A stretch of DNA of 64,000 bases, taken from contig NZ_CP102950.1 of assembly GCF_024741795.1 (NCBI RefSeq), positions 558,001 through 622,000 of the forward strand, in the 5' to 3' direction. A program made the position numbers and the translations under genes. The stretch comes from Arthrobacter sp. CJ23. Lineage in GTDB: Bacteria > Actinomycetota > Actinomycetes > Actinomycetales > Micrococcaceae. Every line of letters begins with the position of its first letter. The first letter of the stretch is position 1. Shown here in pieces: positions 35,114 to 57,636 of this stretch. Under the pieces are notes generated by a model. That model worked only from the letters and a program-made list of their open reading frames with translations, made no database searches and was not told the DNA's origin.

Positions 35114-36598
<1,485 letters not shown>

Positions 36599-37165: not shown

Positions 37166-37200
37166 GCCCTTAGCTGCGTCCCTGCCCCTAGGCTGAGGCG

Positions 37201-37929
37201 ATGGACTCCATTCCCGATGCCGACGTCGGCAGCTGGCTTTGTTCGCTCCTCGACACCACGTGGCGGGACATGCACGTGGTGGTTCCGCACGGCTTTGAGG
37301 CCTATGCCCGGGTGTTCCATCCCGCCTACCGGGACCGGCCCGCGGACACCGGTTCCTGGCACGGCCAAGAGCGGCCCGTGTACGTGGACATCGAGCAGGA
37401 GTCTGTTTCCTGGGCCGAAGTGGCACGGGCTTTCGGGGCGACGATGCATCCCCTGGCCCAGTACCAAGAGCTCCCGGGTCCCGAAAACGGCCCCTACCGC
37501 GAAGTGCTCGATGCCGCCGGCTGGCGCTACGCAGCGCCGGTGCAGGGAAACCTGGACGTCGAGGTTCTCGCGTCGCTCGCGAAGCAGCTGTGCCGGCACA
37601 CTGCCACGCCGGACCGAGGTGTGGCTGCCGTCTGGGAAGGCTGGGGAGGCCTCACCAGCTCGGCGGGCTATAGCCAGCCCACCTTCGTTGAAGGGGTGGC
37701 AGCGGCGGGACCGGGAACCTTCGCCCTGGACGCGCCATGGCACCACGATCCGTGGTGGCCGCAGTCCCCGAGCCTTCTCTGGCCCGAGGACCGCTCCTGG
37801 GTCCTGGTGACCGAGGTCGACTTCGACTCGACCATCATCGCCGGCAGCTCCGCCCTGGTCGCCGCGCTCGTCTCCGATTCCGGGATCGAAGCCCTCCGGA
37901 TCGACGAAGGCAGCCGGCTCAGCATTTAG
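37201..37929 (+). CDS. Conserved actinobacterial hypothetical protein
   Basis: A 242-residue soluble protein rich in Trp (FALDAPWHHDPWWPQSPSLLWPEDRSW). It resembles conserved actinobacterial proteins of unknown function; no catalytic motif or membrane segment is seen. It follows the glutathione peroxidase gene by 35 nt and overlaps the convergent SDR gene by 4 nt. Confidence 0.72.
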   Translation: MDSIPDADVGSWLCSLLDTTWRDMHVVVPHGFEAYARVFHPAYRDRPADTGSWHGQERPVYVDIEQESVSWAEVARAFGATMHPLAQYQELPGPENGPYREVLDAAGWRYAAPVQGNLDVEVLASLAKQLCRHTATPDRGVAAVWEGWGGLTSSAGYSQPTFVEGVAAAGPGTFALDAPWHHDPWWPQSPSLLWPEDRSWVLVTEVDFDSTIIAGSSALVAALVSDSGIEALRIDEGSRLSI

Positions 37930-38789
37930 AGGGTCGGCCTGGATTCCGGCGCGGGTGCGTTCGCGGGCCCTCCGGCCACGTCGCCCGGGCGGCCCGTGAA
38001 GTCCTTCATGGTCTGGTTGACGCCCAGGAGGTCCATGACGCGGTCGAAGGCGCGGACGGGCAGCATGCGTGCGGGCGGGATGAGGTTGACCAGCGGAGGA
38101 AGGACCAGGCTTTGCCGGCCGCTTTCGATCCCATCCAGGATCTTGACCGCCACCTCCTGCTCCTTGAGGATCGGAAGCAGCCGCGGGAACCGGGTGGTGA
38201 CGCCGTCGAACATCCCCGTATCGATGTAGTAGGGGCACACCACCAGCGTGTTCACGCCCGTCTTGTCGGTCCTCATTTCGGCGCGCAGGGACTCATTGAA
38301 GCCGACGGCGGCGAACTTGCTCGCGGAGTAGTCGGTCTGTTTGGCGACGCCCACCATGCCGGCCGCACTGGCGATGGTGACCACGGTGCCGCTGCCCCGG
38401 CGGGCCATGTCGCCCAGGAAGACCCGGGTGACCCAGTACAGGGCGAGCACGTTGACGTTCATGGTGCGCTCGATGCCCTCGTCGTTTCCTTCGAGCAGAC
38501 GTTGGCCGCTGACCACACCGGCGTTGTTGACCAGGACGTCCACGGGACCGGTCACCGCGGCCGCGGCTTTCACGGCTTCCTTGTCCGCAACGTTCACAGT
38601 GTGTGCCTGGGCGGCTCCGCCTGCTCGGCGGATTTCCTCGCTGACCGCGTTGCCCCGATCGGCGGACAGGTCCCAGATGGTCACCCGGGCGCCCCGCTGT
38701 GCGGCGCCAAGCGCCAGGCGCCGGCCGAGGCCGTTTCCGCCGCCGGTGATGAGGACGTGCGATCCGCTCAGCAGGGTTCCTCGTGCCAT
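37926..38789 (-). CDS. Short-chain dehydrogenase/reductase
   Basis: A 287-residue NAD(P)-dependent oxidoreductase. Cofactor-binding ITGGGNGLGRRLA, NNAGV, then catalytic Ser in VTIASAAGM and YSASK (Tyr and Lys) are all present. The C-terminus is Pro-rich. It is the second gene after the aldehyde dehydrogenase (45-nt gap, same strand), and AAAGGAG precedes its ATG. Its substrate could be an alcohol or ketone that feeds the aldehyde dehydrogenase, but this is inference. Confidence 0.9.
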   Translation of the reverse strand: MARGTLLSGSHVLITGGGNGLGRRLALGAAQRGARVTIWDLSADRGNAVSEEIRRAGGAAQAHTVNVADKEAVKAAAAVTGPVDVLVNNAGVVSGQRLLEGNDEGIERTMNVNVLALYWVTRVFLGDMARRGSGTVVTIASAAGMVGVAKQTDYSASKFAAVGFNESLRAEMRTDKTGVNTLVVCPYYIDTGMFDGVTTRFPRLLPILKEQEVAVKILDGIESGRQSLVLPPLVNLIPPARMLPVRAFDRVMDLLGVNQTMKDFTGRPGDVAGGPANAPAPESRPTL

Positions 38790-38834
38790 GTCAGGTGCTC
38801 CTTTGCAGTGTGGATTCGTGTGGATTCGCCGATT

Positions 38835-40409
38835 TCATGGAAGGCGGCCCAGGATCTTGACGGCCCGGGTCATCAGCTGGGCGTAGCGCTTGTGGCTCAG
38901 CCCGGGGGTCGGTCCCACCGGGATCAGGCGCTGCAGGGCAACGGTCTGGGATTCGGTGTACTTGAGGATGCCTTCGCGGCCGTGGCGCCGGCCTGCCCCC
39001 GAGTCCTTCATCCCGCCCATGGGGGCGTCATGGGAGGCCCAGGCCGCCGCGTAGCCCTCGTTGATGTTGACCGTTCCGGCCTGGAGCCGCCGGGCCACGG
39101 ACGCCCCGTGTTCCGGCGTGGACCACACGCTGGCGTTGAGGCCGAAGTCGGTGTCGTTGGCCAGGGCGATGGCTTCCTCGTCGTCCCGCACCCGGTAGAC
39201 CGCAACCACGGGGCCAAAGGTTTCGGACCGGGCCAGCAGCATGTCTGCCGTGACGCCGCCCAGCACGGTGGGCTCGTAGAACAGGGGCCCCAGCTCGGGG
39301 CGCGGGTGGCCGCCGGTGATGAGCTGCGCCCCCTTGGACAGCGCGTCCTCCACATGGGCGCCCACGGTATCCAGTTGCTGCTGGCTGATGAGCGAGCCCA
39401 TGTCGATTTCCCAGTCACGCCCGGCACCCAGGCGCATCCGCTCCACCTGCTTGATGAACGCGTCCATGAAGCGCTCGTAGACGTCGTCATGGACATAGAG
39501 CCGCTCAATGCTGACGCAGAGCTGCCCGGCGTTGGAGAAGCATGCCTGGACGGCTCCCTCGGCGGTCCGCGCCACGTCTGCATCGGCAAGTACCAGCATC
39601 GGGTTCTTGCCCCCGAGCTCGGCAGAGAATCCGATCAGCCGCTCTGCGCACTGCTTCGCCACCGTCTTCCCGGTGCGGGTGGAACCGGTGAACATCAGGT
39701 AGTCCACGCGGCCGATGAGCGCGGGGCCAAGTGTGGACCCGGTTCCGGTGACAATCTGGAACAGAGCCGGCGGCAGCCCGGCGTCGAGCATTAGCTTGAG
39801 GACACGCAGGGCCGTGAACGGGGTTTGCGAATCCGGTTTGAGCACGACGCCGTTGCCCGCCAGCAGCGCGGGGATCGCGTCTGAAACGGCGAGGGTCAGC
39901 GGGTAGTTCCACGGGCTGATGATCCCGATGACGCCCTTGGGAACCTGGTGTTCAACGGTGCGGGTCAGCAGGGGCATCGCGCCCCGGCGCCGCGACGAGC
40001 GGAGGTGCCGGGCCGCGGTGCGCGCGTAGTAGCTCGCGGTCAGGGCGACGTCCGCGAATTCCTCGTAGGCGCTGATCCGCGCCTTGCCCGTCTCGGCCTG
40101 GACGATATCAAGGATGTCTTCCTGCTGTTCGTGCAGAAGGTCGTGGAAGCGGCGGATCACCCTGCGGCGCCGTTCGATGGGCACGGCCGCCCAGGCCCGT
40201 TGTGCGGCACGGGCTCCCTCCACGGCGCGTTCTGCGTCCTCCGGCGTGCAGAGCGGGACGTCGCCGATATGTGTGCCGTCAAAGGGCGAGGAGGAGGACT
40301 GCTGCGGGCGTCCGTCCTGGCAGCTGACCAGGCTGGAAAGGCCAGCGTAGCTGCCCGGATGGCTTGTTATGGCAGGCGTCCTGGTACCGGCCGGGAGCTG
40401 TTTAGTCAT
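38835..40409 (-). CDS. Aldehyde dehydrogenase, succinate-semialdehyde dehydrogenase-like
   Basis: A 524-residue NAD(P)-dependent enzyme. Catalytic Glu is in AELGGKNPML and Cys in NAGQLCVSIERLY; the cofactor fold shows FTGSTRTGKTVAKQCA. The sequence resembles GabD2-type succinic semialdehyde dehydrogenases of actinobacteria, but substrates in this group are broad. GAGGAG lies just before the ATG. It shares a divergent promoter region with a TetR regulator and probably forms an operon with the SDR gene. Confidence 0.88.
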   Translation of the reverse strand: MTKQLPAGTRTPAITSHPGSYAGLSSLVSCQDGRPQQSSSSPFDGTHIGDVPLCTPEDAERAVEGARAAQRAWAAVPIERRRRVIRRFHDLLHEQQEDILDIVQAETGKARISAYEEFADVALTASYYARTAARHLRSSRRRGAMPLLTRTVEHQVPKGVIGIISPWNYPLTLAVSDAIPALLAGNGVVLKPDSQTPFTALRVLKLMLDAGLPPALFQIVTGTGSTLGPALIGRVDYLMFTGSTRTGKTVAKQCAERLIGFSAELGGKNPMLVLADADVARTAEGAVQACFSNAGQLCVSIERLYVHDDVYERFMDAFIKQVERMRLGAGRDWEIDMGSLISQQQLDTVGAHVEDALSKGAQLITGGHPRPELGPLFYEPTVLGGVTADMLLARSETFGPVVAVYRVRDDEEAIALANDTDFGLNASVWSTPEHGASVARRLQAGTVNINEGYAAAWASHDAPMGGMKDSGAGRRHGREGILKYTESQTVALQRLIPVGPTPGLSHKRYAQLMTRAVKILGRLP

Positions 40410-40422
40410 GTGGCGTTCTCCT

Positions 40423-40442
40423 CATTGAGCATCGGGTCAATG
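40423..40442. promoter_or_regulatory. Inverted repeat, possible TetR operator
   Basis: CATTGA (40423-40428) and TCAATG (40437-40442) with an 8-nt gap lie in the 60-nt region between the divergent aldehyde dehydrogenase and TetR genes. A further TTCAATG half-site follows at 40451. Confidence 0.45.
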
Positions 40443-40469
40443 ACCTGGCGTTCAATGTAGGCTACTCCC

Positions 40470-41051
40470 ATGGGTGGACGCAAGGTGCCGGAGCAAGAAA
40501 GGCGCGAGAGCCTCCTGGCCGCCGCAGCCTCGGTGGCAGTTACGGAAGGACTCGAAGCGGTCACGGCACGGCGGGTCGCCGCGGCCGCCGACGCGTCGTC
40601 GGGCCTGGTGTTCTTCCACTTCGGCTCCAAGGAGGGGCTGCTCCTGGCCTTGCTGGAGAGCATCCTGGGCAGGACCCTTGACGCCGCCGACAAGCCGGAA
40701 CTGGCCACGCTGCCGGCCTGGGACCGGCTCTACGAGATGGTGCGCATGGAAATTGAGGAACTTCCCGAGCAGCGGGGCTTCGTCGAATTGCTCTTCGCCT
40801 ACTACTTCATCCGGCGCGACGAGCTCTTCCGCGACCCCATCGACAAGGCCCTGGGCCTGTACGCCGAGGCCTTCCTCCCGAGCTGCCGGGACGTGGCGGA
40901 GGAAACCGGAACGCACGCCGAGCACATTGCCACCACCGTGTTGTCGCTGATCCAAGGCGCAGCAGTCCAGGTCATCAGGGCACCTGCCTCTTTCGACCCG
41001 GAAAGTATCCTGTCCTCCCTGCGGGCGTTCAAGCCAATCCACAGCAACTAA
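40470..41051 (+). CDS. TetR-family regulator
   Basis: A 193-residue repressor with an N-terminal helix-turn-helix (VTARRVAAAADASSGLVFFHF) and a helical ligand domain. It is divergent from the aldehyde dehydrogenase-SDR operon, which it probably controls together with itself; the inverted repeat at 40423 is a candidate site. The ligand is not known. Confidence 0.88.
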   Translation: MGGRKVPEQERRESLLAAAASVAVTEGLEAVTARRVAAAADASSGLVFFHFGSKEGLLLALLESILGRTLDAADKPELATLPAWDRLYEMVRMEIEELPEQRGFVELLFAYYFIRRDELFRDPIDKALGLYAEAFLPSCRDVAEETGTHAEHIATTVLSLIQGAAVQVIRAPASFDPESILSSLRAFKPIHSN

Positions 41052-41086
41052 GCGTCAACACTAAAGCGTCCGGGCTGACGCGCTGC

Positions 41087-42295
41087 CTACGCGGCAGTGA
41101 TCCGAAGCGGCAGCGAACGCCAGCCGCGCAGCGTGTTGTGCAGGTACGGCACGGGTTCGCCCAGCGGTTCGATGCTCTTGACCCGCTTGGCCAGCGCCGT
41201 GAAGAGGACGTCCATCTCGAGGCGGGAGATCGGCTGGCCCACGCACTGGTGGATGCCCATGCCGAAGGCCAGGTGCCCACCGGCGTTCCGGCTGATCACG
41301 TACTGGTCCGCGGTTTCGCCCCAGTGCCGGGCGTCCCGGTTGGCCGAGCCCATGAAGAGCAGCACCTTGGTGCCTGCGGGCAGCGGGATGCCGCGGAACA
41401 CGGTGTCCGAACCCGTGGTCCGGAAGAAGGACTGGAACGGGGATTCGTAGCGCAGGGCCTCGTCGATGGCGAACTTCGCCAGGCGGGGGTTGGCGTGCAG
41501 CTCGGCCCACTGCTCCGGGTGGGCCGCCAGGGCCTGGAGCGTGTTGCCGATGGAAAACACCGTGGTGTCCAGGCCTGCGGAAAGCATGGCCCGCACCAGG
41601 AGTGCCGCCTGCCCGGCCGTGATCTCGCCGCGGTCAGCGAACTCCCAGATCTGCGCCCCCATGCCGTCCGGCGAGAGGTTCTCGCGCGCGCAGTTGTTCA
41701 TGACCCACTGGTGCGTTCCCGCGCCCTTCTCGAAGAACTCCTTGGAGCGCTCGTCGTCCGGGCCGAACGCACTGAAGTTCATGGCGCCGTGGGGGAGCAG
41801 ATTCGCTTCGCGCCCCTCGCGGGGGATCCCGACGGCGTCTCCGAAGACCCGGATGGGGAACAGCTCGGCAAGGTCCGTGACGCCGTCGAACGTTCCCCGC
41901 GCGATCAGCGCGTCCACCAGCTCATCGGCAAAGAGCTCGAAGGCGGTCCGCAGGGAGCGGACGCCACGGGGCGAAATGACGGAGGCCATGGCGTTGCGCA
42001 TGGGGCCGTGCACGGGAGGGTCGGATTCCAGGATGCCCTGGGGGCGCCAGGCGGGTTCGCGGTGCAGGTTCTTGGGCCCCACGCCGGCGCCGGAAATGAA
42101 GGTCCGGTAGTCGTCCAGGATCTCCTTGCATTCCTCGAAGCCGGCGAACGCCAGCACTTGGTACTTCTCAAGCCACACGGCCGGCCCGGCCTCGCGCATC
42201 CGCTGGAACAGGGGGTACGGGTTCCGCAGGTTCTCGTCGGAGTAGGGATCATCCGTCATCACCGGGATGGTCTGCGGGGGCATGGCCACTGACAT
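41087..42295 (-). CDS. Cytochrome P450, CYP199A-like
   Basis: A 402-residue haem monooxygenase. It has the I-helix LLVRAMLSAGLDTTVFS, the ExxR motif in DEALRYESP and the haem loop FGMGIHQCVGQ with the thiolate Cys351. The wording ILESDPPVHGPMR, SPFQSFFRTTGSD, LLFMGSANRD and NTLRGWRSLPL closely follows CYP199A enzymes as I recall them, which oxidise or O-demethylate para-substituted benzoates and cinnamates. ATG at 42295 has a GAGG 7 nt upstream and is preferred over 42313. It is divergent from the IclR-lyase-reductase operon, whose reductase is the likely electron donor. Confidence 0.9.
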   Translation of the reverse strand: MSVAMPPQTIPVMTDDPYSDENLRNPYPLFQRMREAGPAVWLEKYQVLAFAGFEECKEILDDYRTFISGAGVGPKNLHREPAWRPQGILESDPPVHGPMRNAMASVISPRGVRSLRTAFELFADELVDALIARGTFDGVTDLAELFPIRVFGDAVGIPREGREANLLPHGAMNFSAFGPDDERSKEFFEKGAGTHQWVMNNCARENLSPDGMGAQIWEFADRGEITAGQAALLVRAMLSAGLDTTVFSIGNTLQALAAHPEQWAELHANPRLAKFAIDEALRYESPFQSFFRTTGSDTVFRGIPLPAGTKVLLFMGSANRDARHWGETADQYVISRNAGGHLAFGMGIHQCVGQPISRLEMDVLFTALAKRVKSIEPLGEPVPYLHNTLRGWRSLPLRITAA

Positions 42296-42386
42296 CTGGG
42301 ACCTCGTTAGCATCGATGGCGGGGCTGCCGCTCAGCGGATTCTTGGCATCAACGTACCGGTCACAATGGGCAGCCGATAAACGCAG

Positions 42387-42403
42387 TTCTCACCCAGTGA
42401 GAA
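42387..42403. promoter_or_regulatory. Palindrome between P450 and IclR genes, likely IclR operator
   Basis: TTCTCAC (42387-42393) and GTGAGAA (42397-42403) form a perfect inverted repeat with a 3-nt centre. It is in the middle of the divergent promoter region, and its size fits IclR-family sites. Confidence 0.6.
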
Positions 42404-42477
42404 TAGGGTTTGTCGCAATGGCCCGGCGCCCTGCACGATCGATCAACAGCCGGGAACGCACAGAAAGGGGCAGGCAC

Positions 42478-43269
42478 ATGGCAGGAACAACATCCTTCGA
42501 GCGGGGTCTCATGATCCTGTCCGAAATCGCCGACGGCGGTGACACCACCGTGGAGAGCGTGGCCCTGAAGCTGGGCATCCCCGTCAGCACCACCTATCGC
42601 TACTTCCGGCAGCTCCGCGAGCACGGCTTCGTTCAGGAGGATGCCGGGAGTTACCGGCCCGGGCACGCGCTGCTGGCGTTGTCCGGCAGGCACCTCACGC
42701 AGAGCCACCTCGCTGAAGTTGGCACGGCTGTGCTGAAAAGCATTGTGGATGCCGTGGGGGAGACCGCGGTGATGGTCATCCGGGTGGGGACGCAGGCGAT
42801 GTGCCTGCGCCGCGCCGAGCCGGACAAGGGCTTCAAATACACCTTCGCCGTCAACGAGCTCCTGCCCCTGACCGCGGGAGCAGGCCCGCGGACGCTGCTC
42901 GCCTGGGCGCCCGCCGACGTCGTGCGTCAAGTGCTCGACGGCGAGCTTCCGCGCTTTACGGACAACTCGCCGTCGGCGGAGCAGATCCTGGCCACGCTGT
43001 CCCAGATCCGGGCCAACGGCTGGGTGGTCTCGCGCGGCGAGCTCGATCCCGGCGCGGTCTCGGTGGCTGTTCCGGTGATCTTCGACGGCGAGGCCGTCTG
43101 TGCCATTAACGTTGCCGGACCGGAGAGCCGCTGCGGCTCGCGGGCCTGGCTCACTTCGACGGTGAAAACCATGAACGAGGCAGCGGAGAACCTGGCGGCG
43201 TCGCTGGGTTCCCTCGCCAGCCAAAGAACAACACGGGAGGCAAGCGATGACGCTCGACACTCTGCTTGA
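42478..43269 (+). CDS. IclR-family regulator of the lyase/P450 cluster
   Basis: A 263-residue regulator. The N-terminal winged helix has LMILSEIADGGDTTVESVALKLGIPVSTTYRYF; the C-terminal ligand domain has the IclR core RVGTQAMCLRRAE, AGAGPRTLLAWAP and VAVPVIFDGEAVCAINVAGP. The frame is open upstream, but ATG at 42478 has AAAGGGG and matches the family start. It overlaps the lyase gene by 23 nt, so it is probably made from the same transcript. Aromatic or related acids are common ligands of this family. Confidence 0.9.
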   Translation: MAGTTSFERGLMILSEIADGGDTTVESVALKLGIPVSTTYRYFRQLREHGFVQEDAGSYRPGHALLALSGRHLTQSHLAEVGTAVLKSIVDAVGETAVMVIRVGTQAMCLRRAEPDKGFKYTFAVNELLPLTAGAGPRTLLAWAPADVVRQVLDGELPRFTDNSPSAEQILATLSQIRANGWVVSRGELDPGAVSVAVPVIFDGEAVCAINVAGPESRCGSRAWLTSTVKTMNEAAENLAASLGSLASQRTTREASDDARHSA

Positions 43270-44959
43270 GACAGACGCGGTGGTCCTGGGGATCCACCGG
43301 GCAACGTTGGAGGAGCTGGTGCAGGTGGCCAGGCACCGCAGGCCCGTGGCGGTGGACGAGGCCGCCCTGGCCCGGATGAAGCCCAGCGAGGACTGGCTCA
43401 AGGGCGTCATGGATGACATGAAGGCCGGCAAGGACACGGCGCCGATCTACAGCATCAACACCGGTTTCGGCTCGCTCGCCGGCCGCAGGGCCTTCGACGA
43501 ACCGTCCGATGCCGCCGAGCTTTCGCGCCGCCTGGTGCTCTCCAATGCCGCCGGCGTGGGCCGCTACGTGGACGAGGAAGTTGTCCGGGCCACCATGTTC
43601 ATCCGCATCGTCAGCCTCACCCAGGGCTACTCAGGGGTGCGGGCGGACATCGTGAAGACCCTGGCCGAGATGCTCAACCGCGGCGTCTACCCGGCCATTC
43701 CGGAATACGGTTCGCTCGGCGCCTCCGGGGACCTCATCCCGCTGGCCCACGTGGCCATCGTGATGTCCCGCTCGCACACCGGCGAGGACGTTGAACTGGA
43801 TTCCGGCGAGGCCTTCGTGGACGGTGCCGTGGTCTCCGGGTTCGCGGCCATGGCCCACGCGGGCATCGAGCGCCTCCCGCTCGGCGCCAAGGACGGCCTG
43901 GCCCTCCTCAACGGCACATCGTTCTCCTGCGCCCAGGCCGCCTTGGCCCTGTATGACGCCCAGAACCTGCTGGAAACGGCGCAGATCACCGCGGCCATGA
44001 GCATCGAGGCCCTGATGGGCTTCGGCGATGCGTTCATCGACGAGCTCCACCAGGCCCGCGGCCAGCGCGGCCAGATCGAGGTGGCCGCACGGCTCCGCGA
44101 GCTGCTCTCCGGCAGCGGCTTCGTGGACGGCGACGCGGACCACGACCCCGTCCGGCAGCCCCCGCAGGACGCATATTCGCTGCGCTGCATCCCGCAGGTC
44201 TTCGGCCCGGTCAAGGACACCTTGGAGTTCGCGGCCGGCATCATCGACAACGAGATCAACGCTGCGACCGACAACCCGCTGATCTTCCCCACGCTGCCCG
44301 CCAGCCGCACCCTGAAGGCCGTCTCCGGCGGCAACTTCCACGCCGAATACGTGGCCTTCGCGGCCGACTTCATCTCGATTGTGGTCACCGAAATCGGCAA
44401 CATCACCGAACGCCGGCTCTTCCGGCTCGACGACGGCACCCTGAACCGCGGCCTGCCGGACATGCTGGTGGCCAGCGAACAGATCGGCATGGATTGCGGC
44501 TACATGCTGCCCCAGTACCTCGCCGCCGCCCTGGTCTCCGACTGCAAGACCCTGGCGCACCCGGACAGCGTGGACTCCATCCCCACCTGCGCCAACCAGG
44601 AGGACCACGTGTCCATGGCCAACAACGCCGGGCGGCACACCCGCCAGATCGTAGCCAACATCGAATCCGTGGTGGCCATCGAGCTGCTCATGGCGGCCCA
44701 GGCACTGGAGCTGCGGATGCGGATGCCGGCTCCGGCGGGCGCTGAACAGGGAACCAAACCCGGCGCCGCCAGCCTCGCCGCCCTGGCCTACCTGCGCTCC
44801 ACCGCGTCCGCCGACGGCCGCCCCATCGACCACCTCACGGAGGACGTGGTGATGTACCCGCGCCTGCGCAAGGCCGGCGAACTTGTCCATGACGGTTCCG
44901 TGGTGGCCGCCGTGAACGCCGCGATACGCGGAGGCGGCCATGACGCTGCAGACCGCTGA
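43247..44959 (+). CDS. Histidine ammonia-lyase-like enzyme (MIO family) with changed specificity residue
   Basis: A 570-residue MIO-type lyase, which removes the amino group from an amino acid to leave an acrylate. The cofactor triad Ala159-Ser160-Gly161 (GSLGASGDL) is present. HAL active-site residues are mostly kept: Tyr68 (YSINTGFG), Asn222 (LLNGTSF), Gln307-Tyr310-Arg313 (QDAYSLR), Phe364 (GNFHAE) and Glu452 (QEDHVS). The specificity pair is Ser99-Asn100 (LVLSNAAGVG) instead of Ser-His in histidine lyases or His-Leu/Phe-Leu in tyrosine and phenylalanine lyases. About 60 residues longer than typical HutH. No hutU, hutI or hutG is nearby. Substrate is therefore open. Confidence 0.85.
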   Translation: MTLDTLLETDAVVLGIHRATLEELVQVARHRRPVAVDEAALARMKPSEDWLKGVMDDMKAGKDTAPIYSINTGFGSLAGRRAFDEPSDAAELSRRLVLSNAAGVGRYVDEEVVRATMFIRIVSLTQGYSGVRADIVKTLAEMLNRGVYPAIPEYGSLGASGDLIPLAHVAIVMSRSHTGEDVELDSGEAFVDGAVVSGFAAMAHAGIERLPLGAKDGLALLNGTSFSCAQAALALYDAQNLLETAQITAAMSIEALMGFGDAFIDELHQARGQRGQIEVAARLRELLSGSGFVDGDADHDPVRQPPQDAYSLRCIPQVFGPVKDTLEFAAGIIDNEINAATDNPLIFPTLPASRTLKAVSGGNFHAEYVAFAADFISIVVTEIGNITERRLFRLDDGTLNRGLPDMLVASEQIGMDCGYMLPQYLAAALVSDCKTLAHPDSVDSIPTCANQEDHVSMANNAGRHTRQIVANIESVVAIELLMAAQALELRMRMPAPAGAEQGTKPGAASLAALAYLRSTASADGRPIDHLTEDVVMYPRLRKAGELVHDGSVVAAVNAAIRGGGHDAADR

Positions 44960-45983
44960 TTCGGCCGTCCGCGCGGCTCCCCTGAAGGGGTTCACGCGCC
45001 TCACGGTGGGCGCCATCCGCCGCGAAGCCGACGCCGTCGTCTCCCTGCTGCTGAGCGACCCCGACGGTGGTGCGCTGCCGGTCTGGGAGCCCGGGGCGCA
45101 CGTGGATGTCCTGTTCGCCAACGGCATCCTGCGGCAGTACTCGCTCTGCTCGGATCCGGCCGAGCGGACCGCCTGGCGCGTGGCCGTGCTGCGCGAGCAG
45201 GCCAGCCGCGGCGGTTCCAGCTACGTCCATGAGGTCCTGCGGGCCGGCGACACGGTGGAGGTCCGCGGACCGAAGGACAACTTCCGAGGCACGGCTGGTG
45301 CAGGGGAGAAGGTGTTCATCGCCGGCGGCATCGGCATCACCCCGCTGCTGCCGATGATCCGAGAAGCCAACGCGGCCGGGGAGCCCTGGAGGCTGCTGTA
45401 CCTGGGCGCCGGCGTGCGCTCCATGGCCTTCCTCGAGGAGCTCGCCGCCCTGGATCCTGCCGGCGAGAAGGTCCGCGTCCATGCCAAGGACCAGCACGGC
45501 GGCCTGGAGTTGGCGGACTACCTCGCCGCCGTTGCCGCGGACGCCACGGTACATGCCTGCGGGCCGTCCCGGCTCCTGGCAGAGCTCCGTGCGGCCCACG
45601 CCGCGGGCACCTTGCCGCACCTGAGGTTCGAGGACTTCGGCGCCGAGGATTCGGACGTTTCCGCTGCGGACGCCGATGCCGGCGCTCCCGACGGCGGTCC
45701 TGCTGTGGGCCCGGATGACTCGCCTTTTGTGGTGGAAACTGCGGATGGACTGGAAATAGACGTGGCGGCCGGTGAGACAATTCTGGACGCCCTGCAAAGA
45801 GCAGGCGTTCCGGCCTTGAATTCCTGCCGGAAAGGCACCTGCGGCACGTGCGAAACCGTGGTCCTGGAAGGGATTCCGGACCACCGCGATGACATTCTGG
45901 GCGACGAGGAGCGTGCATTGAACGAAACAATGATGATTTGCGTTTCCCGCTGCCACGGGGAAAGGCTCGTGCTCGACATCTAG
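44940..45983 (+). CDS. Phthalate dioxygenase reductase-type oxidoreductase, likely P450 redox partner
   Basis: A 347-residue electron carrier. The N-terminal flavin domain has LRQYSLCSDP, the NAD domain FIAGGIGITPLLPM and HACGPSRLLAEL, then an acidic linker (about 220-255) and a plant-type [2Fe-2S] domain with Cys in NSCRKGTCGTC and a fourth Cys in MMICVSRC. This order (flavin, NAD, iron-sulfur) is that of phthalate dioxygenase and vanillate demethylase reductases. It overlaps the lyase gene by 20 nt. With no oxygenase of the Rieske type nearby, the divergent P450 is the natural partner. Confidence 0.9.
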   Translation: MTLQTADSAVRAAPLKGFTRLTVGAIRREADAVVSLLLSDPDGGALPVWEPGAHVDVLFANGILRQYSLCSDPAERTAWRVAVLREQASRGGSSYVHEVLRAGDTVEVRGPKDNFRGTAGAGEKVFIAGGIGITPLLPMIREANAAGEPWRLLYLGAGVRSMAFLEELAALDPAGEKVRVHAKDQHGGLELADYLAAVAADATVHACGPSRLLAELRAAHAAGTLPHLRFEDFGAEDSDVSAADADAGAPDGGPAVGPDDSPFVVETADGLEIDVAAGETILDALQRAGVPALNSCRKGTCGTCETVVLEGIPDHRDDILGDEERALNETMMICVSRCHGERLVLDI

Positions 45984-46147
45984 GCGGTACCCAGCCGAGG
46001 ACCCTGACGGCGGCACCCCTGCCTGCGCACCCGAAATTATCCAATTTTCCGGGTGCAGTTCACCCCATTGCGGCCTAAATTCTGCTTGTATTGTATGTAC
46101 TGGGGGTCCCACGGGAGACGCCGTCTCCTACAGACCCGAAGGCAGCA

Positions 46148-51405: not shown

Positions 51406-52059
51406 TCAGCCCAGCGGCGCCGGGCGGCCGTCGTCGTCGAACTGTGCTCCGGCGCCCAGCTGGATGAACCGGACCGTCCGCGCGATCAGCGCCTCGACGT
51501 CTTCGGCGGGGGCACCGTCCGGCGACTCGCCGGGGCGGTTGCGGCGCGAGGCGCTGGCCGAGAGTGTTCCGTGGATCAGCTGCGCCAGCTGAGTGACGTC
51601 GATATCCGGCAGATAGCCCTGCGCCACGCCGTCGCGCAGGATGTCCTGCAACAGCAGGTTGAGATCGCCCACGTGGTCAGCGAGCTTCGCGAAGGAGCCG
51701 GGGGAGAGTACCGCCGCCATGGCCGGCCCGGGCGGGAGATGCCGGCGGCTCAGGTCCTCCACCTGGGCCCGGACGTACAGTGCAAGCCTGTCCACGGGGT
51801 TTTCCAGGGCCTCCAGGGCATCGCGCAGGTCCACGATGAAACGCTCGGTCTCATCCAGGGCATAGGCGATGAGCAGCTGCTCCATGTCCGCGTAGTAGTT
51901 GTACACGGCGGTGCGCCCCACGCCGGCATGCCTGGCGACGTCGGTCATGGTCAGCCCCGGCAGCCCGTGCGTGAACAGGAGTTCCCCGAATGCCGTCAGG
52001 ATGCGTCGTTGGGTCTCGGCGCGCTGCGCCGCGTTGTTCGCGGCCGTAATCCTAGGCAT
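51406..52059 (-). CDS. TetR-family regulator divergent from the bacteriocin cluster
   Basis: A 217-residue repressor with an N-terminal helix-turn-helix (LTMTDVARHAGVGRTAVYNYY) and a helical ligand domain. It is divergent from the bacteriocin genes across 295 nt. It could control them, but no palindrome links the two, so it may simply be a neighbour. Confidence 0.85.
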   Translation of the reverse strand: MPRITAANNAAQRAETQRRILTAFGELLFTHGLPGLTMTDVARHAGVGRTAVYNYYADMEQLLIAYALDETERFIVDLRDALEALENPVDRLALYVRAQVEDLSRRHLPPGPAMAAVLSPGSFAKLADHVGDLNLLLQDILRDGVAQGYLPDIDVTQLAQLIHGTLSASASRRNRPGESPDGAPAEDVEALIARTVRFIQLGAGAQFDDDGRPAPLG

Positions 52060-52354
52060 ACGGACACATTACAGGGATCTGTCAGCAAACCCTGCGCGCC
52101 ATGGTCCCAAACCCATCGAGCCCGCCCATCCACAGATTCGGGTCCGTCCATCACGGCTGGCTCGATCGCTAGCGACTGTTCAAATCCTACTCAACGCCGC
52201 TATCACTTCATTGAATTCTTATCCAGTCACATCTTCACAATAATTCCTCCAATCAAGCATTAGGACAATTGATGGATTAATGGTGATAGCCTCTGTTTCG
52301 GGTCGTGGGGGCGCCCTTTCGACCTGCTTAATCACTGGATTAGAAAGCAGATCA
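52060..52354. other. AT-rich intergenic region upstream of the bacteriocin cluster
   Basis: 295 nt without a gene, visibly richer in A and T than most of the window, especially from about 52195 to 52290. No confident promoter is called. The end contains the hairpin at 52324-52350. Confidence 0.5.
52324..52350 (+). promoter_or_regulatory. Hairpin just before the bacteriocin precursor start codon
   Basis: CTGCTT pairs with AAGCAG and AATC with GATT, leaving a 4-nt loop and a small bulge. The right arm covers the only purine-rich stretch (GAAAG) that could act as ribosome site for the ATG at 52355, so it may limit translation. Confidence 0.4.
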
Positions 52355-52690
52355 ATGAACACCATAAAGAAGAAGTCTTTCGGAGCCACTCTTCTCGGCA
52401 ACGAAGTTGAAGTGAATTCAACAATCACGAAACGTACGGGGCTCATGGCGGCGACAGCGGCGGCCCTGGCCATCGCTGGCGTGTTCGGTGCAAGCCTTGC
52501 CGTTTCCTGGATTGCCGGCTCGCTCGGTGTCTCGGCGGCCGCGGCATCCCAGATCGTCAAGGCCATCGAGGTCGGAGGCTGGGCTCTCATTGCCATCGGC
52601 GCATTGTTCGGCGGTGGGATCACCGGAGCACTGATCGCCACGGCACGAGGCATCCTGTTCCGCATTGGCCGCGCGCAAGCTGTCGCCTAA
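52355..52690 (+). CDS. Circular bacteriocin precursor, AS-48/circularin A/uberolysin class
   Basis: A 111-residue precursor. The last 60 residues (about Trp52-Ala111) fit a head-to-tail circular bacteriocin: hydrophobic and helical, starting IAGSLGVSAAAASQIVKAIE, then VGGWALIAIGALFGGG, with a basic end (Arg98, Arg103, Arg106) and a closing AQAVA. Net charge is about +3. This follows the layout of enterocin AS-48 (GIPAAVAG...EAGGW) and of circularin A, known from memory. Such peptides insert in membranes and kill related Gram-positive cells. The leader of about 51 residues is long for the class and holds a hydrophobic segment (30-50). Cleavage site and ring closure are inferred. Neighbours fit a complete cluster. 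Confidence 0.82.
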   Translation: MNTIKKKSFGATLLGNEVEVNSTITKRTGLMAATAAALAIAGVFGASLAVSWIAGSLGVSAAAASQIVKAIEVGGWALIAIGALFGGGITGALIATARGILFRIGRAQAVA

Positions 52691-52694
52691 ATCA

Positions 52695-53252
52695 ATGCTC
52701 GCAGGAACTGTACGCGTGCTTGGGAACATCCCAAAGGGGTTGTTCCCAAGCACGGGTTTGGTCATGGTCGCCATTGCCGTATTCGGCTACGCCGCCGTCG
52801 ATGTTTCGTGGATCAGTGATGCCAAGGACATGGGCGAAAGCCCGTTCTACGGCACTGAATTCCTCCAGATTCTGGTGCGAAATCTGGGCGCAGCCTTGGT
52901 CCTCTACTCCGGGGTGGTCACGCTCGGACTGACCACGTTGGTGGGCTGCGGAGTCCTTGCCCTGTACATCGGTGCCACGATGTCGCTTGGGATGCATTCC
53001 ACCGGCGGGAGCAACCTCGTCAACGACGTCATCTGGTACGTACCGTTCGAGTTCCTCGGGCTGGTGATGGCGGCGACAGCGGGCTTCCAGCCGGTGGTTG
53101 GACTCGGCAGCCGGCTACTGAACGACACACCCGTCACCGTGGCCTCGTTCGTCGATGACGTTGCCCGCTCTCTCGGAACGCTGCTGCTTGCTGTTGCGCT
53201 GATCGCAAGCGGCGCAGCCATCGAGGCCATCTTGATCCACCTGAAAACCTGA
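52695..53252 (+). CDS. SpoIIM/DUF95-family membrane protein of the bacteriocin cluster
   Basis: A 185-residue protein with about five membrane segments. The central NLGAALVLYSGVVTLG and the later FEFLGLVMAATAGF follow the SpoIIM/DUF95 pattern. One DUF95 protein is a hallmark of circular bacteriocin clusters (As-48C, CirC), where it is needed for maturation or export. The start is uncertain: ATG at 52695 (5 nt after the precursor stop), a TTG at 52665 inside it, or ATG at 52764. A perfect hairpin (52715-52754) covers the first codons. Confidence 0.78.
   Translation: MLAGTVRVLGNIPKGLFPSTGLVMVAIAVFGYAAVDVSWISDAKDMGESPFYGTEFLQILVRNLGAALVLYSGVVTLGLTTLVGCGVLALYIGATMSLGMHSTGGSNLVNDVIWYVPFEFLGLVMAATAGFQPVVGLGSRLLNDTPVTVASFVDDVARSLGTLLLAVALIASGAAIEAILIHLKT
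52715..52754 (+). promoter_or_regulatory. Strong hairpin directly after the precursor gene
   Basis: A 14-bp perfect inverted repeat (arms 52715-52728 and 52741-52754) with a 12-nt loop that can pair further. It begins 25 nt after the precursor stop and has no T-run after it. It may protect the 3' end of a precursor message or slow transcription into the downstream genes. Confidence 0.6.
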
Positions 53253-53277
53253 TCCACGAACGGACGCAGCGAACAGT

Positions 53278-53883
53278 ATGAACAACCCGGACAACGCCAA
53301 GGAATCAGAAACGGTCCTTCGAATGCCAGAGGCTCCGCCCATCGAGGCGGAAATTCCTAGCTATGAGTCTGCATCGACTTCCCGGGCTTTATGGATCACA
53401 GCCTACGTGGTGGTCATGGTGCTGGTAGCCCTCCGTCTTCCTCTGATTAACCAGAATCTGACGTCGCAGGTCCCCGCTGACGTCCGGTCCGAGCTCGGTG
53501 ATGATCGCCTGCTGAGTCTCTCGATGACCGTGGGCACCGTATTGTTTTTCTTGCTCTACGCAGTAATCATGTGCCTGTTCTTCTCACTCGCAGGGGTCTT
53601 GGACAAGCGCGTCATTCCAGGGAAAACGGTCATTGGTGGCAGGTGGAAGATTGGCGCATTTTTTGTTGTCGCGGTCCTCGCCACTGTCCCACTGAACCTG
53701 GTCAGCGTCGTGTTCGGGCTAGTGCAGCCGCGGGAGCTTCCCGGATATTGGCTCTACTTCCCTGCAGTGGCGTTGGCTGTCCTGTTCTTCTTCCGCCGCC
53801 ACTGGGTGGGCTTCTCCCTTAGCCGCCTAGTTCTGACAGTGCTCTCAGCCGTCGGCCTCTCCACCGTCGTTTCGCTTGGCTAA
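53278..53883 (+). CDS. Membrane protein of the bacteriocin cluster, unknown role
   Basis: A 201-residue protein with a polar N-terminus of about 35 residues and five membrane segments (about 37-57, 81-107, 125-146, 157-172, 180-198). No recognised domain; shape and place fit a maturation/export helper or a permease subunit. It lies 25 nt after the SpoIIM gene on the same strand. A role in immunity is possible. Confidence 0.7.
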   Translation: MNNPDNAKESETVLRMPEAPPIEAEIPSYESASTSRALWITAYVVVMVLVALRLPLINQNLTSQVPADVRSELGDDRLLSLSMTVGTVLFFLLYAVIMCLFFSLAGVLDKRVIPGKTVIGGRWKIGAFFVVAVLATVPLNLVSVVFGLVQPRELPGYWLYFPAVALAVLFFFRRHWVGFSLSRLVLTVLSAVGLSTVVSLG

Positions 53884-53926
53884 CCCAATCCAACCCAACC
53901 CACAATCGATTCAAGGACGCTCTTCG

Positions 53927-54334
53927 ATGCTCACCCGGTACTACCCATCCGCCCTACGTATCGTGGGCTGCATCGTCGCGGTCTGTTCCGCGATTTCTGC
54001 CCTGCTCCTTGGCACTGCCCCCCCTCCTGATGGGCTGACTGCCCTTGATCCGGCTGCGCTGAGGACCGTCGCGGTGGTTGTGCTCATAGCATTTGGCGTC
54101 GCGTTGCCCGTTGCTGTTCTCCTCACGAGCCCTCTGAAGCAGCTGCTGCTGAAAGCCGGCGCCTTTGCCTTCGCTGCGTTCGCCAACGCGATGACGCTCA
54201 GCCCGCTGCTGTCTGTTCCATTTCAAGACACGACGGCACTTATCGTAGTGATGTGTGGACTCGTCATGGCCACGCTCAGCGTTCTGGCCTACATGGATTC
54301 TGTGCAGCGCAAGACGCCTCAGAGCAAGTTTTAG
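53927..54334 (+). CDS. Small membrane protein of the bacteriocin cluster, candidate immunity protein
   Basis: A 135-residue protein with four membrane segments and few charged residues. AAGGA lies 9 nt before the ATG at 53927, which is better than the TTG at 53876 that would overlap the previous gene. Small multi-pass proteins in circular bacteriocin clusters often confer self-protection, so immunity is a reasonable guess, not seen directly. Confidence 0.65.
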   Translation: MLTRYYPSALRIVGCIVAVCSAISALLLGTAPPPDGLTALDPAALRTVAVVVLIAFGVALPVAVLLTSPLKQLLLKAGAFAFAAFANAMTLSPLLSVPFQDTTALIVVMCGLVMATLSVLAYMDSVQRKTPQSKF

Positions 54335-54341
54335 CCCTCTG

Positions 54342-55817
54342 ATGCGAGCCCGCACGGCCGATTACCACACGCTCCGCAATTTCAGGTCGTTTGAACTCCT
54401 CAATACCTTGCGGTGGGCCATTTCGCTGGACGGTTTCAAGGCGCTGACATTGTTGGGTTCTGTAGCCGGGGTTGCCGTAGGAACCTTGGTTTGCGTCATG
54501 ACGCTCACTGTCCTCAGGGATGGCTTGTTCCGCGGGAATATGGACGACGCCCTCAGCCTTGGCTTCCTGGCACTCGTCTATTCAGCCGCAGTCCTCGGGC
54601 TCGGCGAAATCGTTTCCAACCGGAGACTCGCTGTGACCGGAACCCCACACCTTGAACTGTTCAGGGCGATGGAGTTGCCCATTCATCAGGTGGTCCTCCG
54701 CTATGGAATCCTTCCGTTGGTCCGGCGACTCGGCTTGCTGTGGTTCGCGGCCGCGTTGTTTCTAACGGTGTTCTTCGAGGTCTCGCCACGATATCTGGCC
54801 ACCGTCGTTGCCACCGTAGCCGTGCTCTTGGTGACCACGGCCGCGGCGCTCCATTGTGTATTGCGCTTCGCCTCGTCCGCCGCCCGCCGCAATACCCTCA
54901 GCTGGTCTTTCGGTCTCCTGGCGCTAACGGTGGGTCTCCTGATCGGCGGGGCGACGGCGCCGCTGCTTTCCCACGTTCGAGCGGCCGGGGCGTGGGATGC
55001 TGGCTCTGCTCTCTTCGAGAGTACGGCCGCTGTGGCATGTGCGGTGTCCCTCGCAGCCACAGGGGCATCGGGTCTTTTCAGTCTTCGGTTGTGGCGGGGA
55101 TTGGCGTACCGGAAGATACTCCTCGCGACTCCGGTCACTAGCCGGAAGAAGCGCCGCCTCACGCTCGCATCAATTCTGCTGTCCGAGCTGTTCCACAGCC
55201 GGCAAGGTTCCGTTGTGGGCGTTATCGCTTTGTCGTGGATCGCCGTCGTAGGTTCTCTCCTAGGTGCCAGCGGTGTCCTGCGGTTAGACAGCAGTCTCGA
55301 CGGCGGTGACCTTCAGCGATCGCTCATCGGCGTCACCTTGGTCCTTAGCCTCGGGGTAACAGAGCCGACGCTTTACCGAATCGGCCCCACGGCCAAGCTG
55401 TATGCGTTGCGGTTCGCCTGGGAGAACGGCAACTCGGCGAGGTCCATCGTGACAGGGCTCATCGGCGTCTACTTCCTGATAGGCGGCGCCATCGGTCTTT
55501 TCGTATTCTGCAGCGCATTCCTGGCTTTGGGCATCATGGACATGGGCATCATTTTGACCGGAGTGATCGTCATGGCGGCCGGGATTATCGCCGAAGCCCT
55601 GGCGCGGCCTGCCACCAGCACCGACGGCACGAAGGCAGCAGACATCATGGATGCCCTCTATACACTCCTGCTGGTTTCGCCGTGCTCGCTCATCCTTGTC
55701 CTCAGCCCTGCACGCAGCACCATCTTGCTGCTCGGCTACACCATCCTTCTGACCCTGGGAGCCACCGCATGCCTTCGCACACACCTCCTGAAACTTCGCT
55801 CTCACTCGAGTCCGTAA
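54342..55817 (+). CDS. Large multi-pass membrane protein of the bacteriocin cluster (As-48B/CirB position)
   Basis: A 491-residue protein with about twelve membrane segments. An N-terminal soluble helix pair (FRSFELLNTLRWAISLDGFKAL) precedes paired segments separated by basic loops; no standard transporter motif is seen. Circular bacteriocin clusters carry one membrane protein of about 500-560 residues (As-48B, CirB) that is essential for production, and this gene fills that place. It starts 8 nt after the preceding stop and overlaps the ATPase gene by 49 nt. Confidence 0.72.
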   Translation: MRARTADYHTLRNFRSFELLNTLRWAISLDGFKALTLLGSVAGVAVGTLVCVMTLTVLRDGLFRGNMDDALSLGFLALVYSAAVLGLGEIVSNRRLAVTGTPHLELFRAMELPIHQVVLRYGILPLVRRLGLLWFAAALFLTVFFEVSPRYLATVVATVAVLLVTTAAALHCVLRFASSAARRNTLSWSFGLLALTVGLLIGGATAPLLSHVRAAGAWDAGSALFESTAAVACAVSLAATGASGLFSLRLWRGLAYRKILLATPVTSRKKRRLTLASILLSELFHSRQGSVVGVIALSWIAVVGSLLGASGVLRLDSSLDGGDLQRSLIGVTLVLSLGVTEPTLYRIGPTAKLYALRFAWENGNSARSIVTGLIGVYFLIGGAIGLFVFCSAFLALGIMDMGIILTGVIVMAAGIIAEALARPATSTDGTKAADIMDALYTLLLVSPCSLILVLSPARSTILLLGYTILLTLGATACLRTHLLKLRSHSSP

Positions 55818-56404
55818 CCGTCGGCTACCAGCAGGGCTCCCCCGTCTTGGACGGGCTCAGCCTGGCAATGACAGGCCCCGGCATCTACCGTGTCGCGGGC
55901 AGCAACGGCAGCGGCAAATCAACCTTGCTCGAACTCATCAGCGGGTTCCTCCACCCATGGTCCGGCAAGGTTCGACTCTGCGGCCTGGACGCGAGCAGTC
56001 CGCAGGCCCGCGAGGTTCGCAGCGTGTGCCGGACGTCCCCAGCGCTGTACCCATCAATGACGGTGCAAGACCATCTGGCATTTGCTGCCCAAAGCCGTGG
56101 CGTTGGGCGCGACGCGGGACTCTCCCGATTGGAGGCCTATGGTCTCAAGGATTGGGCTGAACAGCCCGCGTCCACGTTGTCCACGGGCAACCAACGCAAG
56201 CTCTGGATCCTCATGTGTACCGTGGCGGACACCCCTATCATCGCAATCGACGAGCCCTTCAACGGGATGGACAGTCAGGGCACCGATGCGCTGATCTCCG
56301 AACTACACGAATGGGCTTCACGCAAGATCGTGGTGCTCGTGTCGCACACCGTCCCCGAACAACTCGCCGTGGACCACTCGTTTCGCTTCCAGCCAGCAGA
56401 GTAG
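55769..56404 (+). CDS. ABC ATPase of the bacteriocin cluster
   Basis: A 211-residue ATP-binding protein. Walker A AGSNGSGKST, signature STGNQRKLW, Walker B IIAIDEPFNGMD and the H-loop VSHTVPE are present, without a fused membrane domain. It matches the As-48D/CirD-type ATPase that drives export or immunity. The ATG at 55769 is inside the end of the preceding gene in another frame, indicating tight coupling. Confidence 0.82.
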   Translation: MPSHTPPETSLSLESVTVGYQQGSPVLDGLSLAMTGPGIYRVAGSNGSGKSTLLELISGFLHPWSGKVRLCGLDASSPQAREVRSVCRTSPALYPSMTVQDHLAFAAQSRGVGRDAGLSRLEAYGLKDWAEQPASTLSTGNQRKLWILMCTVADTPIIAIDEPFNGMDSQGTDALISELHEWASRKIVVLVSHTVPEQLAVDHSFRFQPAE

Positions 56405-56895: not shown

Positions 56896-57636
56896 ATGCC
56901 AGTTCCACCGGGATACCCCAGCAGTTCCGTCCAAGGCAACAACATGGGTGAGGAGGAGCATCAAGCCTTCTACCGGCGTCGGCCCGACGAAAAGACCCCT
57001 GCGGCACGCTCTGCGCGGGGGTTCGCACTCTTCGTGGGGATCGACGAGGCGGTGGCCCAATCGGCAGGCACCTCCCTGTGCGGGCTCGCGAAGGACATCC
57101 GCGACTACGGCCACGCCCTGGTGGACGGGCTCGACAGCCACGTCGCGGTGGCGCTCGGCCCGCCCGGCGGCGAAGGCAGCCCAATCCAGAGCGTCTTCGC
57201 AGCGTTCGGTGACCCCTCGGCCCTGGCCCGGCCCCGGCGGGACATTAAGGTGCCCCTTCCGTCAGCAGTCCGGCCCCCAGCAATCCAGCCCCGGCGTGCC
57301 AAGAGGCCTGCCGCGTCGGGCGTGCTCATTGATGTGTCGGCCAGGAAGGTCTATCTCGACGGCGAATCGGTGCACTTGACCATCAAGGAGTTCCGGCTGA
57401 TGACCTACCTGATAGACAACAGGGCGCGCATCGTCGGCCGGGCGGAACTGCTCCAGCACATCTGGGGGCATGCCGCCGAACTGCCCAACGAGCGCGCCAT
57501 CGATATCCACGTCCGGCGGCTTCGGAGCAAGCTCGGACGGCTTGCCAGGACCATCCAGACCCGGCGCGGAGCCGGCTACCAGTTCCGCGGCGATCCGGAG
57601 CTCACGGTGTGCACCGCCCCGGAATACATGATCTAG
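56896..57636 (+). CDS. Winged-helix DNA-binding protein (OmpR/PhoB C-terminal type)
   Basis: A 246-residue protein. The C-terminal 95 residues are an OmpR-type effector domain: VYLDGESVHLTIKEFRLMTYL, ELLQHIW, the recognition helix AIDIHVRRLRSKLG and the wing IQTRRGAGYQF. The N-terminal part (FALFVGIDEAVAQSAGTSL) is not a receiver domain and lacks phospho-acceptor Asp residues, so it is not a normal response regulator. GAGGTAGGA precedes the ATG at 56896. Targets unknown. Confidence 0.82.
   Translation: MPVPPGYPSSSVQGNNMGEEEHQAFYRRRPDEKTPAARSARGFALFVGIDEAVAQSAGTSLCGLAKDIRDYGHALVDGLDSHVAVALGPPGGEGSPIQSVFAAFGDPSALARPRRDIKVPLPSAVRPPAIQPRRAKRPAASGVLIDVSARKVYLDGESVHLTIKEFRLMTYLIDNRARIVGRAELLQHIWGHAAELPNERAIDIHVRRLRSKLGRLARTIQTRRGAGYQFRGDPELTVCTAPEYMI

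Follow-up and report, generated by a model that had tools for sequence, protein, structure and literature searches.

Does a run of six genes in Arthrobacter sp. CJ23 encode a circular bacteriocin and, if so, between which residues is its ring closed? The genes lie at 52412-56404 of a 64,000-nucleotide stretch of this genome (assembly GCF_024741795.1, contig NZ_CP102950.1, positions 558,001 to 622,000; hereafter the window, whose numbering we use throughout), where the list of open reading frames gives six open frames, all on the plus strand and tightly packed. We find that they very likely form a complete circular bacteriocin cassette, conserved and probably in working order, whose product is predicted, and that the ring is probably closed one residue away from the seam that is usual for its class. 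The precursor and its partners, among them two components of an ATP-binding cassette (ABC) transporter, are as follows:

52412..52690, + strand: gene A, the precursor, 92 residues from GTG 52412 (PF09221, 23.6 bits; homologue starts; upstream alignment)
52412..52507, + strand: leader, 32 residues, hydrophobic, with the putative cut before Trp (conservation, ring spacing)
52508..52687, + strand: core W1-A60 in its probable register (seam residue counts, rotated profile, ring spacing)
52695..53252, + strand: gene C, SpoIIM/DUF95-like membrane protein, 185 residues (PF01944, 23.1 bits)
53278..53883, + strand: gene M1, membrane protein, 201 residues (homologues in the loci compared; Yip1 match in 2 of 21 relatives)
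53927..54334, + strand: gene M2, small cationic membrane protein, 135 residues (net charge +4; homologues in the close clade)
54342..55817, + strand: gene B, membrane protein of 491 residues, probable ABC exporter permease (predicted structure)
55769..56404, + strand: gene D, ABC ATPase, 211 residues (PF00005, 71.6 bits; homologues next to the precursor at 33 of the 35 loci)

Evidence for a circular bacteriocin cassette

Clusters of this class are described as containing a precursor, a small cationic and hydrophobic immunity protein, ABC transporter genes and a DUF95/SpoIIM protein (PMC6131525), and these are the features that we used. The precursor matches PF09221 (Bacteriocin_IId) at exactly the Pfam cut-off of 23.6 bits, and at 25.4 bits in a whole-genome search. 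A profile of 20 family sequences compared with solved structures finds enterocin NKR-5-3B at E 1.6e-4 and AS-48 at E 0.0033 and 0.029. Across the 60 core codons, comparison with four homologues gives 22-32 synonymous and 7-8 amino-acid-changing differences; on this codon evidence the core is under purifying selection.

The partner genes recur with the precursor. By profile search, homologues of C, M1, B and D stand beside it in 33 of 35 distinct actinobacterial loci, and 31 of those 33 have the order A-C-M1-B-D. The loci come from Arthrobacter, Paenarthrobacter, Sinomonas, Glycomyces, a Propionibacteriaceae metagenome-assembled genome and further genomes of the genus and family. They comprise L002-L014, L049-L056, L063-L067 and L069-L077, with L048 and L068 left out as repeats of L010 and L011; the exceptions to synteny are L004 (cut by a contig end), L049 (decayed), and L073 and L074 (other gene order). 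L007 and L011 were counted as B-positive though their B frame is split (in L007 the C frame too), by either mutation or assembly error. For gene C, a search of 25 family members with PF01944 gives matches at E <= 0.01 for 21 of them, the best at 1.9e-9, and hhalign with a canonical SpoIIM protein yields an alignment of 116 columns at probability 61.5.

These results bear out the core of an earlier note on this DNA, which read six co-oriented genes, with a SpoIIM/DUF95 gene at 52695, as a circular bacteriocin cluster. The hidden Markov model search of the precursor that it proposed returns PF09221 at cut-off and TIGR03651 below cut-off, the partners recur, the six plus-strand frames include the membrane proteins M1, M2 and B and the ATPase D, and the gene at 52695 matches PF01944, for this copy below the cut-off. 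Of the outcomes that the note named as refuting, neither a precursor unlike every circular bacteriocin model nor a missing DUF95 match was obtained. The note's precursor was in the right frame with, most likely, too early a start, at ATG 52355 (111 residues). The most likely start is GTG 52412, 57 bases downstream, because 25 of 26 homologues, 88-94 residues long, start at about residue 18-24 of the 111-residue frame and the frame above is unconserved. Other loci have ATG or GTG at the homologous position, often with GGAG or GGGG before it; the ribosome-binding site at GTG 52412 is weak.

Position of the ring seam

Family I rings usually have Leu first and Trp or Tyr last (PMC7562740; PMC10028692), and the CJ23 core ends in Ala. 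To place the seam we compared 121 family members (P0001-P0121), among the matches listed (16 of 136 matches left out), with 27 full canonical precursors, the remainder of 30 once three fragments (P0148, P0150 and P0151) had been removed. None of the 121 relatives has a C-terminal aromatic residue, and all 27 canonical precursors have a C-terminal Trp. The aromatic residue of the relatives stands directly before the Leu-equivalent, as Trp in 77 and Tyr in 43 (120 of 121), the exception being Ser in a degenerate-looking sequence. When the Trp of the canonical-core profile is moved to the front, the profile scores 20.7 bits against the CJ23 precursor, versus 17.0 when the Trp is dropped and 17.2 unrotated. 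The same move brings a gain in 101 of the 121 relatives over the Trp-less profile, in 85 over the unrotated one, and in none of the 27 canonical sequences, which are also those that trained the profiles.

Ring geometry points to the same register. Counted across the seam, the spacing from glycine to glycine is 12 in all 26 canonical cores that have both glycines. It is 12 in 99 of the 121 relatives only when the aromatic residue is taken as the first of the ring, with a 59-residue ring giving 11 and a 62-residue ring 14 (five of the 121 cores have no glycine near the end and 17 have another spacing). Started at the aromatic residue, every one of the 116 measured cores is 60 residues long. Because moving the Trp round the ring restores both the known sequence and the 12-residue spacing, the core is probably Trp52-Ala111 of the 111-residue frame (W1-A60), with Ala60 joined to Trp1, so that the seam precedes the usual Trp/Leu position by one residue; the 60-residue core of the earlier note agrees with this register. 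The ring, ..AQAVA-W-IAGSLG.., would then have the sequence of known rings and a seam displaced by one residue, a reading that we favor with some reserve. It has a computed net charge of +3, an isoelectric point (pI) of 11.71 and a seam peptide, AQAVAWIAGSLGVSAAAASQIVK, with [M+H]+ 2169.20. The computed monoisotopic masses of the cyclic products are 5783.29 Da for W1-A60, 5597.21 Da for the Trp-less 59-mer and 5969.39 Da for the 62-mer. The linear form of W1-A60 is computed at 5801.30 Da, 18.01 Da heavier than its ring, and the seam peptides of the 59-mer and 62-mer at [M+H]+ 1983.12 and 2355.30.

Several points weigh against this placement. Thirty-six of the 121 relatives show no gain over the unrotated profile, and the counts across relatives are not independent, since the shift was probably inherited as one change. 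Circularin A takes Ala, Val and Ile at position 1, not Trp, and requires a C-terminal aromatic residue (PMC10028692). A polar residue is reported to be preferred before the cut (PMC5695211), and the residue before the putative cut is in the relatives mostly Met, Leu or Ala, with Ser also seen. Three of the 27 canonical precursors also have Tyr before Leu, so that an aromatic residue in this place can belong to the leader.

The position-1 preference of circularin A, the preference for a polar residue before the cut, and these leader aromatics are why we keep as the main rival a cut by the same cassette after Trp52, which would give a 59-residue ring, I1-A59, and make the conserved Trp a leader recognition residue. 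Its first residue, Ile or Val, would be like that of known rings, and rings ending in Ala are known (groups 4 and 8 of PMC8659200). Yet such a ring would have no aromatic residue at its seam and 11, not 12, residues between the flanking glycines, and we consider it possible but doubtful.

We think it unlikely that the cassette cuts three residues before the Leu-equivalent, in the manner of family II (gassericin A type), to give V1-A62 or a neighboring register. Seam variation does have a precedent here, as family II aligns with family I only after a permutation by three residues (PMC7452424), and family II rings have Ile, Val or an aromatic residue first and Ala last (PMC7562740). However, the seam spacing would be 14, the two residues before the Trp are variable, and a charge of +3 with pI 11.71 lies outside the values of the listed family II members (net charge -2 to +2, pI 3.88-9.53; PMC6131525).

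Weighing the class assignment

Other observations count against the cassette reading as a whole. TIGR03651 (circularin A/uberolysin) scores the precursor at 20.1 bits, below its cut-off of 30.7, and the match of gene C to PF01944, nearly full-length and with E 7.8e-5, is below the cut-off of 26.9 bits. When gene B is compared with the large membrane protein of a canonical actinobacterial cluster, no similarity is detected, and Foldseek gives B no match at E <= 0.001. AlphaFold2 (AF2), run on the linear core with no cyclic constraint, confidently predicts one short and one 50-residue helix (H2-6, H10-59). This model has no PDB match by Foldseek or VIA-align, and the known compact fold of four or five helices is not seen in it.

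The long helix would suit a product exported in linear form, as leaderless and other helical bacteriocins are, and leaderless bacteriocins have the fold and the Yip1-type partners in common with this class (PMC11580447). We judge this very improbable: the SpoIIM/DUF95 gene, which has been called class-defining for circular bacteriocins (PMC11580447), is present in 33 of the 35 loci, a leader exists, and the profile similarity is to circular peptides only. The least probable reading is a silent or decaying cluster that makes no product in CJ23. The decayed copy in one relative (L049), the want of a promoter-like match before the genes and the weak ribosome-binding site might suggest it; against it, none of the six frames is interrupted in CJ23 and selection on the precursor is purifying.

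Partner genes and a proposed route to the ring

Of the two halves of the ABC pair, the permease, B, is the weaker-supported part, as its structural model reaches only a moderate Z. Gene B is modelled as an ABC-type permease, adjoins the ABC ATPase gene D, and has as its closest known system a mycobacterial ABC efflux pump (PDB 8k1m-8k1p); it is probably an ABC exporter permease. A MATE-type transporter was rejected for B, as its Z was lower and its coverage shorter than those of the ABC pump, and homology of B to the canonical large membrane protein was dropped for want of detectable similarity. The genes are closely spaced, the precursor stop at 52690 being followed by the C start at 52695, and B and D overlap by 49 bases.

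Gene M2, which starts at 53927 or 53876, is a candidate immunity gene. Its product is small, hydrophobic and charged +4; no immunity model matched it. Strong M2 homologues are present in 14 of the 33 complete loci, all within the close clade. In Paenarthrobacter nicotinovorans SSBW5 a second M2-like gene lies directly before the precursor (L010:8402-8824, the same in L048).

In the route that we envisage, a 92-residue precursor would be made with its hydrophobic 32-residue leader. By analogy with the class, protein C (SpoIIM/DUF95) would be part of a membrane assembly that cuts off the leader and joins the ends of the core, and the exporter formed by B and D, with the role of B predicted from its model, would carry the peptide out. 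M2 would most likely protect the producer, and M1 may be an accessory membrane component. The ring would be expected to harm the membranes of related Gram-positive bacteria, as class members do.

Comparison with known systems

The best solved relative is enterocin NKR-5-3B (PDB 2mp8), from the amylocyclicin-like group of family I, matched over residues 2-63 of 64. The two cores share an LGIS start motif, a similar basic C-terminal helix and 12 residues between the seam glycines, and both have SpoIIM and ABC genes nearby; NKR-5-3B has Leu first and Trp last, whereas the CJ23 core has Trp before the Leu-equivalent and Ala last. The uberolysin/circularin A subfamily (TIGR03651) gives a weak full-length match, and the CJ23 precursor differs from it in having no C-terminal aromatic residue. 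Carnocyclin A and garvicin ML are exceptions to this family I habit (PMC7562740). With family II (gassericin A, plantacyclin B21AG) the core shares a C-terminal Ala, an aromatic residue on the N-terminal side and a seam unlike that of family I (PMC7562740, PMC7452424), but it is cationic, and no family II structure appears among the profile matches.

The earlier note had called the core AS-48/circularin-like; the circular class stands, and NKR-5-3B, not AS-48, is the closest solved relative. An AS-48-like cluster is known from Arthrobacter sp. APC 3897, with ten genes and a precursor 71.3% identical to AS-48 (PMC10456417). It has the genus name, the circular bacteriocin class and the DUF95 and ABC genes in common with the CJ23 cluster, which by contrast has six genes and resembles AS-48 only by profile; an AS-48 type was dropped because this match is weak. 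The note had also expected a new product. The predicted product is new, but its family is known to automatic annotation, since NCBI names relatives 'uberolysin/carnocyclin family circular bacteriocin'. A literature search outside subscription journals and preprints found no paper on the actinobacterial family or on a one-residue shift of the seam, and a mining paper has two actinobacterial precursors among 6,928 (PMC8534725).

The mechanism by which circular bacteriocins are cleaved and ligated has yet to be solved, and the role of DUF95 is only presumed (PMC6131525). It would appear, on balance, that throughout this actinobacterial family the ring sequence is kept and the machinery joins Ala to Trp or Tyr, where the usual join is Trp to Leu. 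If so, the point of ligation has moved in evolution along a ring whose sequence is conserved, and what the cyclase reads must be the folded region about the seam, not fixed terminal residues. Such a family, in which the aromatic residue remains part of the ring but lies across the seam from its usual place, and which has its own divergent DUF95 protein, would then offer a direct comparison for what the machinery recognizes. The shifted seam is the point worth testing, as a new handle on ring closure in bacteria, and the cassette marks the Micrococcaceae as a source of cationic rings.

Distribution and genomic setting

Within the genus, 23 of 206 genomes have a precursor match, of which one (G121) is a decayed copy and two are marginal (E 1.6e-4 and 0.006); in the family, 12 of 295 genomes have one. 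In a draw of 396 genomes from the phylum, with 13 candidates per genome scored, the family profile finds two, CJ23 itself and one marginal match; PF09221 is above cut-off in four of the 396, CJ23 included. Plasmid records held no precursor relative at E <= 1e-3. In the decayed copy at L049:4729-5411, Ser replaces Trp in the precursor, M2 is broken, and no C, M1, B or D was found; orphan immunity was considered there and dropped, its M2 being itself broken. Each of two Glycomyces loci (L012:8471-10124 and L013:8473-10124) has three consecutive precursor-like genes ahead of its SpoIIM gene, the first ending in Arg, not Ala, and these clusters may be multi-peptide. A second, divergent precursor, ending in Arg, directly follows the first at L067:8423-9013. 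Canonical precursors with a C-terminal Trp are also found in the phylum (L057:4503-4751, with a SpoIIM gene near it, and L062:9604-9891), one relative being named Rubrobacter naiadicus.

The cluster has a GC content of 60.9%, against 66.6% for the window and 49.4% for the stretch before it:

52060..52411, + strand: presumed promoter stretch, intergenic, before the precursor (composition, 49% GC)

As no sigma-70-like match was found in 52060..52411, we infer the promoter; promoter and terminator scans on both sides of the cluster found none. Upstream lies tetR (51406-52059, minus strand), matched in 37 of 37 same-genus genomes (59 relatives searched). In five of five relatives the locus is collinear with the window as far as about 52090 and diverges beyond it, and two of these relatives, G143 and G160, have the cassette about 0.7 Mb away from tetR; the cassette is thus placed in an accessory region and has been relocated. 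The right border of this region was sought and not found. Of the DNA that comes after tetR in one relative, three stretches of 42-122 bases are matched elsewhere in the CJ23 genome.

Directly after the cluster, and part of the accessory region, is a gene for a DNA-binding protein with a Trans_reg_C domain (56896-57633), a second copy with about 55% identity to a gene present once in the 35 other matching genomes. Elsewhere in the window, about 8.9 kb (37170-46080) are missing from the loci of three of the five relatives, whose edges there are 0.1-0.6 kb apart; this segment encodes a short-chain dehydrogenase, an aldehyde dehydrogenase, a TetR protein, a cytochrome P450, an aromatic amino acid lyase and a 2Fe-2S protein. 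At 36041-36298, within a long open frame, short tandem repeats occur with unit lengths of 6, 18 and 30 bases.

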